From contig NZ_CP015106.1 in the NCBI RefSeq assembly GCF_002214565.1, forward strand, positions 744,001 through 808,000: DNA of 64,000 bases. Direction: 5' to 3'. This document shows, piece after piece, positions 21,649-60,674 of this stretch. Numbering within the stretch: position 1 is the first letter of the stretch; each line of letters begins with the position of its first letter. A model generated the notes under the pieces. It was not told where the DNA came from. It saw only the letters and a list, made by a program, of their open reading frames with translations, and searched no databases. The translations under genes and the position numbers were made by a program. The stretch is from Thermococcus radiotolerans. Lineage in GTDB: Archaea; Methanobacteriota_B; Thermococci; Thermococcales; Thermococcaceae.

Positions 21649-23691
21649 TCAGAGTTCGGTTATCTCGGTGCTTTCCTTCTCCTCTTCCTCGGCCTTCTTC
21701 GGCAGTCCTCCTGGGCGCCTGCTCTTCTTCCTCTCGAGCTTCTCCCTGAGCTTCTCGGACTCGTCCCAGTACTTGTAGGCGACTCCAGCGAGCACGAAGG
21801 CCACTATGATGAGGAGTATCGCGAGCGGCTTCCATGGGTTGCCGGTTGGGCTGTAGGTTTCGGCAATACCCTTGAGCTCCTCGGCGAGAGGAGTGGGGTC
21901 GCTCATCTTGGCGAGGGTCTGGTTGACATAGCCCGGAAGCTCCTCCGGGGTCGGCCAGACTTTGACCTCCTCCACGATAACCTTGGGCGGAATGCTGTTG
22001 ATGGTAACGAGGTTGCCGAGCTCAAGCCTGTGCTCGTTTCCGAGCGGGTCGAGGTAGACGAGCGTAGCCCCTATGTTGGTGAGGTTTTCCCTGAGCACGG
22101 TCAGGTCTATCTGAACCGTCTTGGTTTCTCCGGCCTTAATGGTCCCTATCTTGATTGATGACTGTCCGTCAAGGCTGGCCGGGAGGTCTAGGAGGAGCGT
22201 GGCGTTCGTTACAAACTCGTAGTCCGGGTTGCCCTCGTCAGCTGAGAGCATGAACTTGACCTTGACGGTATCGCCGACCTTTGCGCTCACGTAGTTGCCC
22301 CAGGTGCCGTTGTAAGCCTGGGCGGTGACGTCTATGGCGGGTATGTTGTAGACCTTAATGCCGCTGAGAATCGGGGAGTATATCGTCCTCTTCTTTCCGG
22401 TCTCGAGGCTCTTGTCGTCGTAGAAGGTAACTATGGCCTTCCCAATCTCAAACTCGCCGACCTTGGTGGGCTTGAGGACGTAGATGAGCGCAGGCATGCT
22501 GGTGAAGGCAGGGAAGGTCTTAAGGGTCCAGGTTTTGGTCATACTCACGAGCTCAAAGTCGTTGGGTATCGGCGCGGCAACGCTCACGTCGTAGGCATCT
22601 CCCCTTCCGAGGTTCTGAACGTTTATCGTGACCACGAGGTTGTCGTTGAGCAGCATCGCCTTTGGAACGGCATCTATTTTGGCTATAACGTTGGCCTGCC
22701 TGAGAATCGGAGTCACCTGAGCACCGGCAGGGCCGTAAACCCTGATTATCGCTCTCTTGTAGTCGGGCTCAACCTTCTGAACCGAGAGCTTCAGGGGGGC
22801 GTTTGGAACGTTCTTTGGCTCGTCTCCGACCTCAAGGAGCATCGTTCCCAGGCTGTAGTCCCCTCTGAAGGCCTCAACCTTAACCACATCGGGAATCGTT
22901 GAAACGAGCTTGATGTAGTACGTGGTGTTGTCCGCAGTTATGGGGAGCTTCTCGTTGACGTAGAGGAGGTCGTTGTAGAGGAGGACGGTCTCAACCTGCT
23001 CGGGCGGGTTAACCTCACCGCCCTTTTTGACGATCTGGAAGTTTGTGGATGCGACCTTGGGGACGTAGACGTTTATCGTGGCGCCGTTGTTCACGGTGTT
23101 TGTAACCTCTATGGACAGGTAGTTGGAGTATGAGTGGCTTGAGTCAAGCTTGTACCTCACGCTACCGGCGGAGCCCTTGTCTATGGTGAGCGTGTATATG
23201 TCGCCGTAGGGCATGGTGACCTTGAACGAGGCGGTATCGCCGGAAACCGAGGTCAGCTTTATTTTAATCTGCGGGAAGCCCTCCGGCAGGGTTAGCTCGT
23301 TCCCAACCACAAGGTTCTTGCCGGAGAGGACCTTCTGGAGGGGCGATTTCAGCTCAAGGAGGATGGACTTGGTGTCGTACCTGATCCACACGAGGCTCAC
23401 GTTCAGGTAGACGTTCGCGCTCGATGGATAGAGGAGGTATCCATCCTGGCTGATGACGTACCTGAGGGGGCCCTGGGGGCCGTCGACCTGAATGTATATC
23501 TTGCTCCAGTTGGGATTGGCGTCGGCGAACTGGACCTCAAACGGACCCAGAACAGCCTTGTCTCCCAGACCCAGGGAGACGCTGGATATGCTGGCGTATT
23601 CCGGCACGCTTGCGGATTTTACTAGGTGCACCACAGGTGTCAGGGAGAGAATCATCAGGCCCAGCAGGATTAAAGCGGCTACCTTTTTCAT
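21649..23691 (-). CDS. secreted, membrane-anchored COG1361-like protein
   Basis: 680 aa from the ATG at 23691, which follows GGAGAT. A signal peptide (residues 1-~27, ending near VKSASV) leads into a series of beta-sandwich repeats; conserved NLGRGDAYDVSVAAPIP (about residue 368) and related segments resemble CARDB/NPCBM-associated domains of COG1361 S-layer-like proteins. A transmembrane helix (PLAILLIIVAFVLAGVAYKYW, in two halves, about 625-645) and a basic cytosolic tail end the protein. Probably a cell-surface protein; ligand unknown. An ATCACC/GGTGAT inverted repeat overlaps its TATA box at 23721-23748. Confidence 0.8.
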   Translation of the reverse strand: MKKVAALILLGLMILSLTPVVHLVKSASVPEYASISSVSLGLGDKAVLGPFEVQFADANPNWSKIYIQVDGPQGPLRYVISQDGYLLYPSSANVYLNVSLVWIRYDTKSILLELKSPLQKVLSGKNLVVGNELTLPEGFPQIKIKLTSVSGDTASFKVTMPYGDIYTLTIDKGSAGSVRYKLDSSHSYSNYLSIEVTNTVNNGATINVYVPKVASTNFQIVKKGGEVNPPEQVETVLLYNDLLYVNEKLPITADNTTYYIKLVSTIPDVVKVEAFRGDYSLGTMLLEVGDEPKNVPNAPLKLSVQKVEPDYKRAIIRVYGPAGAQVTPILRQANVIAKIDAVPKAMLLNDNLVVTINVQNLGRGDAYDVSVAAPIPNDFELVSMTKTWTLKTFPAFTSMPALIYVLKPTKVGEFEIGKAIVTFYDDKSLETGKKRTIYSPILSGIKVYNIPAIDVTAQAYNGTWGNYVSAKVGDTVKVKFMLSADEGNPDYEFVTNATLLLDLPASLDGQSSIKIGTIKAGETKTVQIDLTVLRENLTNIGATLVYLDPLGNEHRLELGNLVTINSIPPKVIVEEVKVWPTPEELPGYVNQTLAKMSDPTPLAEELKGIAETYSPTGNPWKPLAILLIIVAFVLAGVAYKYWDESEKLREKLERKKSRRPGGLPKKAEEEEKESTEITEL

Positions 23692-23720
23692 ATCTCCAGC
23701 CTCCAAAGAGTAGTTAACTA

Positions 23721-26335: not shown

Positions 26336-27145
26336 TCACCTTAGGGCCTCATTTACGAGGGCGTTTAAAAGCTCAACGATTTTCTCGTGGACGTCGAGGC
26401 TTATTCCATCAACAGTCGGCGTCTGGGTTTTGAAGACCCCGTCTATCAGACCGAGCTTTGATATGACCCTGACTATCGCCCCCTCGTCCCAGCCGGGGAG
26501 GAGCTCCCGTCCGAACTCTATTGACGCCTGGGCCACGAGCCCGTAGGCTCCCCAGTTGGAGACGGCCGAAAGAACGAGTTCGTCCGTTTCGACAATGCTG
26601 GCTATCCTATCACCGTGGGGGACGTACCTTCTGGTGAGTTCGGTTATCTTCCCCATGCCGGCCTCGTTTCCGCCGTCGCCTATCCCTATCGTTGGCACCC
26701 CGAGCTCTCTAGCCCTCAGAACCGCCCAGTCGAAGGTCTCCCTCGTTATCTCCATGCCGCTCATTGAGTAATATCTCCCGTCCACTGCCCTCCCGGGGGT
26801 TTCCACAGCTACAACGAGGGAGTAGTCCCCTATCTCCGGTTCGTCCGTGAACCTGATGCCAAATGGTTCCAGGGCGGTCTTTACCTCCGGATACGTAAGC
26901 ACCTCGGCGGTGCCCCCCAGGGTCTCAACGGCCTTCACTAGAGCCAGTGCTCCCGGCGGGCCGTCGGTCTCCGCGCGCATCATCGGAGGGATTGGAAACC
27001 CCGTTATCACGAGAACGCGCTCATAATTATCCAAAAACATCTTTGCAGAATTATGTAAAAAATTGGGGTTTTCCCTACGGTAGTCGAGGTAAACGCCCAG
27101 GGTGCCCCTGTTGCCAACGTCAGTGTTGATTAGGTGGGCTATCAT
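26336..27145 (-). CDS. DUF4392 protein, D-glutamate-cyclase-like
   Basis: 269 aa. The stretches ITGFPIPP, ETDGPPGA, GDGGNEAGMGK and SNWGAYG are the conserved core of DUF4392, the domain found at the C-terminus of mitochondrial D-glutamate cyclase. In that enzyme it turns D-glutamate into 5-oxoproline. Here the domain stands alone. Because archaeal D-amino acids are poorly known, the substrate is open. Fifth gene in the hps-phi unit, three bases after the 59-residue gene. Confidence 0.8.
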   Translation of the reverse strand: MIAHLINTDVGNRGTLGVYLDYRRENPNFLHNSAKMFLDNYERVLVITGFPIPPMMRAETDGPPGALALVKAVETLGGTAEVLTYPEVKTALEPFGIRFTDEPEIGDYSLVVAVETPGRAVDGRYYSMSGMEITRETFDWAVLRARELGVPTIGIGDGGNEAGMGKITELTRRYVPHGDRIASIVETDELVLSAVSNWGAYGLVAQASIEFGRELLPGWDEGAIVRVISKLGLIDGVFKTQTPTVDGISLDVHEKIVELLNALVNEALR

Positions 27146-27148
27146 GGC

Positions 27149-27328
27149 TCATTCCTCTGCCTCGTAGACGGTTATCCTGACCCTCTTGCCCTTTACCGCC
27201 TCCTTGAGCTTCCACCAGAGTTCCGTCGGCTCCTCGCTCCTGTGAACCAGTTCGTCCCCGTTTTCGAGCTTGACCCTCTTCTCCCGGTACTTGACGAAAA
27301 CGCCTTCCATATCGAATATCTCCTTCAT
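27149..27328 (-). CDS. small conserved hypothetical protein (59 aa)
   Basis: 59 aa from the ATG at 27328, which overlaps the HAD stop codon as ATGA and is better spaced from GGGGGG than the ATG at 27332-27334. The protein is a charged, probably all-beta plus one helix fold (VFVKYREKRVKLENGDELVH, then a Trp-rich helix, then RVRITVYEAEE). No known motif. Its tight packing between two operon genes supports it as a real gene. Confidence 0.65.
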   Translation of the reverse strand: MKEIFDMEGVFVKYREKRVKLENGDELVHRSEEPTELWWKLKEAVKGKRVRITVYEAEE

Positions 27329-27969
27329 TCCCATCCCCCCAGGATTTTTCTAAGTTCGTGAAGGGTTCTGATTTCATAGTCCGCCATGTTATAACCTTCC
27401 TCACCGTCGCGGTTTATCCACACGGCGGTCATCCCGACGTTCTTGGCACCGTAAACGTCCTGGCTGAGGGAATCCCCGACCATCATGGCCTCACCGGGCT
27501 CCACGCCCAGGTCCTCAAGGGCGTAGAGAAATATCTTGGGCTCGGGTTTTATAGCGTTCACGTCGTCCCTAGTGACGACGACATCGAAGTAGTCCAGCAG
27601 ACCGGCGAGCTTGAGCTTCAGTCTCTGGTACTCCGGGCCGCTCGTGATGACCCCGAGGAGGTAGCCCTCCTCCCTCAGCCACTCCAGGGTTGGAACCGTA
27701 TCGGGATAAACGTGGAGCTTGTGGGGGTAGGTCTCGAGCAGCTCCTCGTAATTCAGGTCGAGGTCGAAGAGCCTGAAGAAGAAGTTCCAGTCGTGCCAGT
27801 CGTAGGTGTCTCTCCTGCCGAATATCTCTCCGAGGAACTGCTCCCTCGCCTCATCCTTGCTTATCCCAAACTTCTTCGAGAGCTTGTCGTAGACCTGCGG
27901 AAGGAAGAGCTGGATGAGCGGCATCTCGGTTAGTATTGTACCGTCTATATCAAAGAGAACCGCCTTCAT
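27325..27969 (-). CDS. HAD-superfamily hydrolase
   Basis: 214 aa. Motif I DIDGTI (residues 7-12), helical cap (about 15-85), motif II TSG (about 110), motif III KPEPKIF and motif IV GDSLSQD. It is a subfamily I HAD phosphatase with a C1 cap, so likely acts on a small phosphorylated metabolite. It starts one base after the stop of the FtsZ-like gene in the hps-phi unit, which suggests a sugar-phosphate substrate, but this is inference only. Confidence 0.85.
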   Translation of the reverse strand: MKAVLFDIDGTILTEMPLIQLFLPQVYDKLSKKFGISKDEAREQFLGEIFGRRDTYDWHDWNFFFRLFDLDLNYEELLETYPHKLHVYPDTVPTLEWLREEGYLLGVITSGPEYQRLKLKLAGLLDYFDVVVTRDDVNAIKPEPKIFLYALEDLGVEPGEAMMVGDSLSQDVYGAKNVGMTAVWINRDGEEGYNMADYEIRTLHELRKILGGWE

Positions 27970-27970
27970 T

Positions 27971-28726
27971 TTACCACCTCTTGACTAGGAGGGCCAGTAT
28001 CTCAACTTCCCTGGTGAGGTTCTCGTCCATTACGACGCCCCATATCACGTCCTTCTCGGCCAGTATCTCCTGGAAGTGCCCCAGTATCCCGTGCGCGTCC
28101 TTCAGTGGAAACTCCCTTCCGACGAGTATTCCCACGAGACCCCTGTCCCAGATGCCCCAATGCCAGCCGAAGTCGACCTCCCGGAGGAGGCGCAGGATTC
28201 CGACGTTGCCGCCGCGGATCATGTTGAACAGGTCGGCGTAGTCGATGTTGACGAGCATCTGCGTTTCGAGATAGTAGTAGAGCCTGCTGAACATCTCGGC
28301 GATGTTCTCCGATGCACCCTGGAACGCGACCGAGATCGAGGCGTCGTCGCTGCGGAAGAAGTCCCAGAGGGAGTCGTAGAAGACGGTTTCAAAGTCACCG
28401 GCCCAGGGAGGCTTTTTCTCGGTGACCAGTTCTTTTTTCGGCGTCAAAACGTAGGCGAGCTTTATCGTGTCCTTCGGGGCGCTTTCCGTTATTATCTCCC
28501 TCAGTTCGTGGTTTATCTCCTTGTCGTCGAAGACGAGCCACAGAAAGGTGTTCTCGGGAAGGCTGGAGAAGAAGTTCCTGAGCCTCTCCTCGTACTCATC
28601 AAAGCGGGGCAGGAGGTAGTAGGCAGGGTTGACGGTCACCTTAACGATGCCGTCCGCGGTTATGCTGTTGACTATCCTCGCTCCCGTGTTCCCGATTCCG
28701 ACAAAAAGATGGGTAAAAGACTGCAT
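27971..28726 (-). CDS. degenerate FtsZ/tubulin-superfamily protein without GTPase signature
   Basis: 251 aa. Homology can be read against the true FtsZ at 59553-60674. The N-terminal nucleotide loop is FVGIGNTGARIVNSI (Fts[16 protein letters not shown]), followed by VNPAYYLLPRF ([12 protein letters not shown]). Residues 159-176 VNIDYADLFNMIRGGNVG match [18 protein letters not shown], and residues 227-248 (DVIWGVVMDENL, then EVEILALLV) match [12 protein letters not shown] and MIRILIVV. The tubulin signature GGGTGTG is replaced by FDDKEIN, and the protein is about 120 residues shorter. GTP hydrolysis is therefore unlikely. It lies nine bases after hps-phi and one base before the HAD gene. Function unknown. 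Confidence 0.75.
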   Translation of the reverse strand: MQSFTHLFVGIGNTGARIVNSITADGIVKVTVNPAYYLLPRFDEYEERLRNFFSSLPENTFLWLVFDDKEINHELREIITESAPKDTIKLAYVLTPKKELVTEKKPPWAGDFETVFYDSLWDFFRSDDASISVAFQGASENIAEMFSRLYYYLETQMLVNIDYADLFNMIRGGNVGILRLLREVDFGWHWGIWDRGLVGILVGREFPLKDAHGILGHFQEILAEKDVIWGVVMDENLTREVEILALLVKRW

Positions 28727-28735
28727 GGCGACCCC

Positions 28736-29956
28736 TTACTCAAGGGTCGCATGCTTCTTCTTCATATCCTTTTCGGTCTTCTGGAAGGTTGCCATGAGGA
28801 GTGCTATGACTCCGTCGAGGAATATCATCGTTGAGTCCTCGAAGAGCGTTCCCATCGGGGCTATCCACTTGTACTTGGTGAGCATCTGGCGCGCTATGTA
28901 GTCCGTCGGGATGTCGGTCTTGGCCCTTCCGGGTATCTCAACCACGACGTCGGAGAGCTTTCCGAGGGTCGAGTTGGCGTAGGAGGTTATCGCCACTATC
29001 TTTCCACCCTGCTTCTTGGCTATCTCCGCGGCATCGACTATACTGTTGGTCTCACCGGAACCGCTGATGGCTATGAGCAGATCACCCGGCTCGAAGGCAG
29101 GCGTTATGGTCTCACCGACGACGTAGACGTTGAAGTCGAGGTGCATGAGCCGCATCGCGAAGGCCTTGCCGACGAGGCCGCTCCTTCCGGCACCGTAGAT
29201 GAATATCTTGTTCGCCCCAATCATGGCATCGACGAAGCCGCGAACCTGCTCTATCTTGAGCTTCTCAGCGACGTTGTCTATGTGGTCCACTATATCCGTC
29301 ATGGCCTTCCTTATGGTCATCATGTACTCTCCCCAGAAGAGGTCGATTATTCTCCTGGTGACTTCCTCGGGATTTTCGGCCTTGGTTATGGCGCCGCCGA
29401 CTATGATGATCGTGGCGCCCAGCTCGATGACCTTTGGGATGGTCTCGAGGTTCAACCCCCCGGCAACGGCAACTGGGACACTGACGGCCTTGACGACCTT
29501 CTCAAGGTCTTCCAGTGGACTCTTGCCCTGAACCTGCTCATCTATGCCGGTGTGGACGAGTATGTAGTGAACGCCCATCTTCTCGAGTTCTTTAGCCCTT
29601 TTGACCTTGTCCTTAACACCGATTAGATCGACCATGACCCTGATTCCATAGCGCCTTGCAACTTCAACCGCGTCTTTTATCGTCTTGTCATCGGCGACGC
29701 CGAGGATAGAAACAACGTCGGCACCGTGTCTTGCCGCCATCTCGACCTCCAGAGCGCCGGTGTCCATGGTCTTGAGGTCCGCCACAATCTTCCTGTCAGG
29801 GAAGCGCCTCTTGAGAAGCTCAACCGCGCGCATGCCCTCCTTCTTGATGAGCGGTGTTCCCACTTCGAGCCAGTGAGCGCCGCCGCGGGCGGCCTTCTCC
29901 GCGATAGAAATGGCCTGTTCAACGTCAGTTAAGTCAAGAGCAACCTGAAGTATCAT
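28736..29956 (-). CDS. hps-phi: bifunctional 3-hexulose-6-phosphate synthase / 6-phospho-3-hexuloisomerase
   Basis: 406 aa fusion. Residues 1-~210 are the HPS TIM barrel with ADLKTMDTGALE and DLIGVKDKV motifs; residues ~220-406 are the PHI SIS domain with GAGRSGLVGKAFAMRL and ISGSGETNS. In Thermococcales, which lack a pentose phosphate pathway, this enzyme runs in reverse: fructose-6-phosphate to hexulose-6-phosphate to ribulose-5-phosphate plus formaldehyde, supplying pentoses. A TATA box (AAAGTTTAAAAAG) lies near 30000-30015 on the minus strand. It heads a six-gene unit that includes the FtsZ-like gene. Confidence 0.95.
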   Translation of the reverse strand: MILQVALDLTDVEQAISIAEKAARGGAHWLEVGTPLIKKEGMRAVELLKRRFPDRKIVADLKTMDTGALEVEMAARHGADVVSILGVADDKTIKDAVEVARRYGIRVMVDLIGVKDKVKRAKELEKMGVHYILVHTGIDEQVQGKSPLEDLEKVVKAVSVPVAVAGGLNLETIPKVIELGATIIIVGGAITKAENPEEVTRRIIDLFWGEYMMTIRKAMTDIVDHIDNVAEKLKIEQVRGFVDAMIGANKIFIYGAGRSGLVGKAFAMRLMHLDFNVYVVGETITPAFEPGDLLIAISGSGETNSIVDAAEIAKKQGGKIVAITSYANSTLGKLSDVVVEIPGRAKTDIPTDYIARQMLTKYKWIAPMGTLFEDSTMIFLDGVIALLMATFQKTEKDMKKKHATLE

Positions 29957-59503: not shown

Positions 59504-59552
59504 ACCTGCCTACAAAGTGAAACAGATGTTAAATTGCCCGGAGGGTGAAAAG

Positions 59553-60674
59553 ATGCTGAAGCTGATTGAAGACGCTATCGAAAGAACCTCTGCCGACCTT
59601 AACAAGGTCCCGGAGGCCCAAATCCCCCAGACCGACATTGATGAGGAGCTTAAGAAGATTCTCGAGCAGATACAGGCCAAGATTTATGTCGTTGGTGTCG
59701 GCGGTGCCGGCTGTAACACCATTAACAGGATGATGCAGGTTGGTATTCAGGGTGCAAAGGTCATCGCGGTTAACACCGACGCGCAGGACCTTCTCAAGGT
59801 TCGCGCTCACAAGAAGATACTCATCGGTAAGGAGCTGACCAGGGGCCTCGGAGCCGGAAACAACCCCAAGATGGGTGAGGAGGCCGCCAAGGAAAACGAG
59901 AGGGACATACGCGATGCCCTTGAGGGCGCCGACATGGTCTTCATCACCTGCGGTCTCGGTGGAGGTACCGGTACCGGTGCCGCCCCGGTGGTTGCTGAGA
60001 TAGCCAAGAAGATGGGCGCCCTGACAGTCTCCGTGGTCACCCTTCCGTTCACCGTTGAGGGTATAAGGCGCATAAAGAACGCCGAGTACGGCCTTGAAAA
60101 GCTCAGAAAGAACAGCGACACCGTCATAGTCATCCCGAACGACAAGCTCATGGAGGTCGCCCCGAACCTGCCGATACACATGGCCTTCAAGGTCGCCGAC
60201 GAGATACTCGTCCAGGCCGTCAAGGGCATCACCGAGCTCATCACCAAGCCCGGTCTCGTCAACCTCGACTTCAACGACGTCCGTGCGGTCATGAAGGACG
60301 GCGGCGTCGCCATGATCGGTATCGGCGAGAGCGACAGCGAAAAGAGGGCTTTAGAGGCCGCCCAGCAGGCCCTCAACAGCCCGCTCCTCGACGTAGACAT
60401 AAGCGGTGCCAAGGGTGCCCTTATAAGCATCATCGGAAGCGACGTCAAGCTCGAGGAGGCCCAGCAGATCATTGAGCTCGTCACGAGCAAGCTCGATCCC
60501 GAGGCCCAGGTCATCTGGGGTATCCAGCTCGATGAAGAGCTCGGCAAGATGATAAGGATACTCATAGTCGTCACCGGCGTCAGCTCACCCTACGCCGTCG
60601 CCGAGGAGGAGACCCTCTACTACCCCGAGGAGTCGGAGAGAAAAGTTATTAAGCTCGACCTTGAGGAGCTTTGA
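59553..60674 (+). CDS. ftsZ: cell division GTPase FtsZ
   Basis: 373 aa from the ATG at 59553 (CGGAGGGTG upstream). The GTPase domain holds [15 protein letters not shown] (46-60) and the tubulin signature GGGTGTG (136-142); the T7 loop with NLDFNDV lies about residue 232 and the C-terminal domain includes [10 protein letters not shown]. All catalytic parts are present, unlike the relative at 27971-28726. FtsZ forms the division ring. It is followed by secE with overlapping frames. Codon bias is strong. Confidence 0.96.

Follow-up and report, generated by a model that had tools for sequence, protein, structure and literature searches.

Background

In plant chloroplasts, ARC3 carries an FtsZ-like domain without working GTPase motifs and inhibits FtsZ assembly. 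In Staphylococcus aureus FtsZ (SaFtsZ) the GTPase site is composite: the T7 residues N208, D210 and D213 of the top subunit position the catalytic water for the GTP of the bottom subunit, which itself contributes G72 (T3), D46/Q48 (T2) and R143 (PMC8936486). Incoming FtsZ monomers preferentially join the bottom end, using the top surface that carries GTP (PMC8936486). The regulators SulA and MciZ attach at the bottom of the C-terminal domain of FtsZ (PMC9405007), and one-sided binding is thus a workable way to regulate FtsZ. In archaea, SepF and MinD have been named as FtsZ regulators (PMC8178401). In 2010, Makarova and Koonin pointed out archaeal FtsZ paralogues in which important motifs are missing (PMC2875224), and a 2023 survey queried genomes with PF00091 (PMC9871819). 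Here we describe a 251-residue FtsZ-like protein of Thermococcus radiotolerans, for which we use the name FZL.

Results

FZL is encoded at 27971..28726 on the minus strand of the window, the whole stretch of 64,000 nucleotides that was analysed, with an ATG start and 251 codons plus stop. A gene for a bifunctional 3-hexulose-6-phosphate synthase/6-phospho-3-hexuloisomerase (HPS-PHI; 28736..29956, minus strand; NF041755, 553.6 bits against a cut-off of 500) ends 9 bases before FZL, and a gene for a HAD-type phosphatase of the TIGR02253 family (27325..27969, minus strand) begins one base after the FZL stop codon. Across the Thermococcaceae, the order HPS-PHI > FZL > HAD was found in 34 of the 35 loci checked and persists even where the surrounding genes have otherwise changed (L064, L065); the sugar-phosphate operon described in the first-pass annotation is therefore real and its order is conserved. 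The sole exception is a second, frame-broken FZL copy in one genome (L074, G095:C2:360947-361698), which is spread over two frames, contains an in-frame TGA and has no HPS-PHI gene beside it; the same genome holds the intact order at L075, and the second copy may stem from contamination or be a duplicate in decay. In two genomes (L040, 5887-6753; L044, 7427-8292) about 0.9 kb separates FZL from the HPS-PHI gene upstream, which suggests an inserted gene or a split operon. Downstream of the HAD phosphatase gene, the gene at 26336-27145 encodes a PF14336 protein (D-glutamate cyclase-like, C-terminal; 208 bits) and accompanies the FZL block in nearly all Thermococcaceae loci. Elsewhere in the window, at 21649-23706, lies the gene of a protein of 685 residues that contains DUF11/TRAP-beta-like domains, has a hydrophobic segment at its C-terminus and is fast-evolving (29-81% identity) while its neighbours are highly conserved.

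The comparison protein of the first-pass annotation was the canonical FtsZ1 of the window (59517..60674, plus strand; there 59553-60674), which carries GGGTGTG and VNLDFND, and the two proteins were said to line up end to end. By sequence, the similarity is significant in the second half only: in one BLASTP comparison, FZL residues 131-244 matched FtsZ1 with 24% identity (E=2e-7), and neither BLASTP nor the family profile run against the PDB gave significant FtsZ similarity for the N-terminal half. The profile, built from 26 orthologues and compared with the whole PDB, matched M. jannaschii FtsZ1 (E=3.5e-7) over two collinear stretches with a third, faint one at the N-terminus (0.1 bits), and its best non-FtsZ entry had an E-value of 0.057. 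In Pfam, FZL reached no cut-off: PF12327 scored 13.2 bits against a cut-off of 27 and PF00091 was absent, while the best E-values across the 26 members were 0.0043 and 0.053, respectively. Pfam Tubulin remained unmatched in 25 of the 26 members at E<=1, the other standing at 0.053. NCBIfam gave a weak ftsZ match, and the search for a family matching FZL better than FtsZ yielded none in Pfam, NCBIfam, PHROGs or PDB sequences. FZL is almost certainly a diverged FtsZ homologue.

The fold was examined with AlphaFold2 models of two proteins, the window FZL (pLDDT 85.9, pTM 0.85) and a distant orthologue that shares about 47% identity with it (pLDDT 90.3, pTM 0.89). In both models the elements follow the FtsZ order, and the long helix H7 links two domains. 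The 50 PDB matches that Foldseek listed for the models are all FtsZ (E down to 8.4e-12), with TM-scores on the query of 0.59-0.75 and about 11-16% identity on the structure alignment. Since the overall rmsd to PDB FtsZ is 5-7 A, the match is one of fold and not of detail. At that level the end-to-end alignment holds, and the predicted fold of FZL is that of FtsZ, as first supposed. The equivalences drawn in the N-terminal half are taken from the models, because global hhalign of the N-terminal halves came out shifted.

In the FZL family, 50 of the 251 positions are invariant, and the loops of the GTPase site were followed through 78 distinct sequences. The T1-loop equivalent (residues 8-15, FVGIGNTG; 28682..28705, minus strand) keeps G10 and G12 invariant. 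At the T2 position the FtsZ 'NTD' has become N/D-P-x (N or D, then usually P), so that the T2 Asp is lost, and the T3 loop is missing from the model. The tubulin signature GGGTG[ST]G of T4 is absent from all 78 orthologues. At this position (residues 67-72, DDKEIN; 28511..28528, minus strand, placed by model and alignment) the family has a conserved [ED]-D/N-K-x-x-N with N72 invariant; in the model, strand S4 (residues 60-67) runs straight into the replacement, where helix 70-82 starts. The erasure of GGGTGTG in favour of FDDKEIN was thus correctly placed in the first-pass annotation, and the glycine loop and the VNP/VNTD, VNIDYAD and VIWG segments are likewise as it described them. Its estimate of some 120 missing residues overstated the loss from the core: FtsZ here has 373-385 residues including an N-terminal extension and a C-terminal tail, and against solved FtsZ cores of about 305 residues the loss is about 55, mainly of T3, T4, the H5 region and H9.

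The remainder of the upper face is conserved in a form of its own. P96 and E99 are invariant in S5-T5, and in the S6-T6 equivalent (residues 112-119, FETVFYDS; 28370..28393, minus strand), which is family-specific, F112 and residues 114-119 (TVFYDS) are invariant; the invariant residues of this face are N72, Y92, P96, E99, Y117, D118 and S119. Beyond the central helix H7 equivalent (residues 131-154; 28265..28336, minus strand, from the model) lies the T7 catalytic loop (residues 158-165, LVNIDYAD; 28232..28255, minus strand), whose intactness the first-pass annotation had not mentioned. The NxDxxD residues N160, D162 and D165, which correspond to N208, D210 and D213 of S. aureus FtsZ, occur without exception in the 78 distinct sequences, which represent six genera, and A164 is invariant too. 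In the model, S7 follows the T7 loop, and the position of H9 is taken by a tryptophan-rich segment (residues 182-196, REVDFGWHWGIWDRG; 28139..28183, minus strand) in which W188, W190, G191, W193 and G196 are invariant. The C-terminal subdomain then ends with S8, H10, S9 and S10 (residues 195-251, FtsZ_C-like by model and Pfam; 27974..28144, minus strand), with an invariant KDxIWG in S9. The window protein ends at the invariant W251, just past S10, and some members extend up to about 12 residues beyond its equivalent; neither the model nor the family sequences include the C-terminal tail that bears the SepF-binding GID motif. Judged from its sequence, FZL is a 'one-faced' FtsZ: of the composite site it still has the half that works on a neighbour, but no longer the half that would hold GTP of its own. 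Because T3, T4 and the T2 Asp are lost, FZL is predicted to be unable to hydrolyse GTP. We infer that GTP binding of the FtsZ type should be absent as well, and that another subunit cannot take its place on the upper face through the usual GTP interface.

Of 94 Thermococcaceae genomes, 89, spread over six genus codes, gave a short FZL member in a family profile search. No such member turned up in 21 genomes from elsewhere in the phylum, and 323 genomes belonging to two more archaeal phyla had no match at E<=1e-9. A profile scan of genome contigs returned Thermococci records only, and plasmid and PHROG searches gave no match. The five genomes lacking FZL are draft assemblies: HPS-PHI runs off the contig in two (G016, G033), HAD does so in a third (G088), and neither gene was found in the other two (G002, G077). 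These absences look like contig or assembly gaps, and every Thermococcaceae archaeon seems to carry FZL. With dN/dS values of 0.03-0.27 against its orthologues, the gene is under purifying selection.

In ten Thermococcaceae genomes, PF00091 retrieved FtsZ1, FtsZ2 and a CetZ-like protein from every one, together with one further, weak hit to a long ORF of no relation in one genome, and failed to detect FZL, a fourth FtsZ-superfamily protein of the Thermococcaceae. In hhalign comparisons FZL scored 92.9 against FtsZ2 (P=1.7e-12), 64.6 against FtsZ1 and 21.5 against CetZ, the last not significant (probability 1.2%, 38 columns). By profile, the closest paralogue of FZL is therefore FtsZ2, which is encoded outside the window, and not FtsZ1. 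In a tree with FtsZ1, FtsZ2 and CetZ, the FZL sequences group together with full support, but the branch of this group is very long (7.9), so that the argument for an origin from FtsZ2 is confined to the profile scores. The FtsZ2 copy of T. radiotolerans lies at G000:C1:1150387-1151304. FtsZ2 of most Thermococcaceae examined reads GMGNGTGTG and not GMGGGTGTG at T4 (L091, L092, L093, L096, L097, L099), the Gly being kept in two examined genera only (L100, L101).

Discussion

The retention of T7 alongside the loss of T3, T4 and the T2 Asp suggests that a canonical FtsZ offers its upper face as the docking site for the T7 face of FZL. The first-pass annotation had proposed a cap or regulator of FtsZ filaments; the retained T7 loop sharpens this idea, which is plausible. 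We tentatively favour a protein whose T7 face would contact FtsZ2 (or FtsZ1) where the GTP-bearing upper face lies exposed, be it in a free monomer or in the subunit that forms a filament's upper end, and which would serve there as a cap or as a hydrolysis trigger. It would complete the hydrolysis site for the terminal GTP and at the same time block that face of FtsZ, whereby filament length might be limited or the end from which subunits leave might be set; alternatively, FZL could sequester GTP-loaded monomers. Since monomers are preferentially added at the bottom end (PMC8936486), a protein with only a T7 face would act at the opposite end. FtsZ2 is the most likely partner because its profile is the closest, and with FtsZ1, FtsZ2 and a CetZ-like protein in all ten genomes tested a candidate partner would be at hand. 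We infer the partner, the docking face and the effect on filaments from sequence features, and several observations speak against a cap. The invariant residues of the upper face exceed what a merely dead face needs, the gene lies among sugar-phosphate genes and not among division genes, and the conservation of T7 is not unique in a protein with 50 invariant positions. Moreover, ion binding or stability could account for the retention of the T7 residues.

The conserved residues of the remodelled upper face make a new ligand at that site a serious rival to the cap. In bacteria, moonlighting enzymes link metabolism and division, and the upper face of FZL might similarly bind a small ligand tied to the HPS-PHI operon, the ligand state then controlling engagement with FtsZ. 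Candidate ligands include pentose- and hexulose-phosphates as well as nucleotides. Invariant residues foreign to FtsZ at the T4, T5 and T6 positions (N72, P96, E99, D118, S119), together with W63 and Y92, are consistent with such a pocket, as is the gene order with HPS-PHI and HAD, maintained even in altered neighbourhoods, although shared gene order is no proof of a shared pathway; we consider this reading possible but somewhat unlikely. The same tight order throughout the family would also fit a fold repurposed outside division, as a subunit, chaperone or scaffold of HPS-PHI or the HAD phosphatase, with T7 kept for structural reasons, and the invariant tryptophan-rich stretch 188-193 and W251 do resemble protein-contact surfaces. 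However, T7 retains precisely the catalytic residues within the FtsZ-like VNIDYAD context, whereas the CetZ-like paralogues of the same genomes read LDASD there, and to our knowledge HPS-PHI also occurs in organisms without FZL, which leaves this explanation unlikely. In the most elaborate combination, FZL would be an FtsZ-derived end-cap and hydrolysis trigger, a half-active subunit that contributes the T7 catalytic face alone. It would sit on the upper end of FtsZ2 filaments under the control of a metabolite acting through the rebuilt upper face, and would belong to the core proteins of every member of the Thermococcaceae; that all of this holds is unlikely. A further reading is that FZL still holds a guanine nucleotide in a reconstructed pocket and forms polymers, by itself or as a minor subunit with FtsZ2. 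This would agree with the kept G10-x-G12 of T1, the N/D at T2 and the conserved T4 replacement, but T3 is absent from the model, the T4 phosphate loop is lost in all members and nearly all of the 26 lack a Pfam Tubulin match, so that this is very improbable. A chance resemblance or a decaying pseudogene, for which only the low identity to FtsZ on the structure alignment could be cited, is scarcely credible, being contradicted by the profile match, the FtsZ-only top fold matches, the dN/dS values and the family-wide presence.

FZL is a real and conserved protein that is new within the FtsZ superfamily. It escaped both earlier surveys because these searched by the GGGTG motif (PMC2875224) or by PF00091 (PMC9871819), and other pseudo-GTPase FtsZ relatives may hide from such surveys likewise. 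In the literature searched we found no paper describing FZL and no FtsZ regulator in Thermococcales, subscription papers being outside that scope and a prior mention thus possible; a search by presumed locus tags returned only PF0219, an unrelated pterin enzyme. Archaeal FtsZ regulators are few, and FZL provides a candidate in model hyperthermophiles, some of which are genetically tractable. Furthermore, a lost upper face combined with an intact T7 face offers a testable idea on the control of FtsZ filament ends.

Compared with archaeal FtsZ1 and FtsZ2, FZL shares the fold, the order of elements, H7, the NxDxxD of T7 and the 'IWG' of S9, but differs in lacking T3, the GGGTGTG of T4, the T2 Asp, H9 and the C-terminal tail, in its length (251 residues against 373 or more) and in its neighbourhood, FtsZ2 adjoining a ParA-type gene. 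ARC3 and FZL would work alike, as degenerate FtsZ domains regulating a true FtsZ, although ARC3 is eukaryotic, multi-domain and of independent origin. The CetZ-like protein of Thermococcales, of the same superfamily and present in the same genomes, differs from FZL in that it keeps FGFGGGTGAG and has 'LDASD' in place of the NxDxxD of T7. FtsZl1, FtsZl2 and Tubulin_2 (PF13809) are, like FZL, divergent members of the superfamily found by remote similarity, but their recognition depended on the GGGTG(S/T)G loop (PMC2875224), which they carry and FZL lacks; PF13809 gave no significant match to FZL (best E-value 0.38, in one of 26 members). Finally, SulA and MciZ sequester or cap FtsZ by one-sided binding (PMC9405007), as FZL would do, yet they are not FtsZ homologues and they take the lower, T7-side face, whereas FZL would take the upper, GTP-bearing face and would thus be their mirror image.
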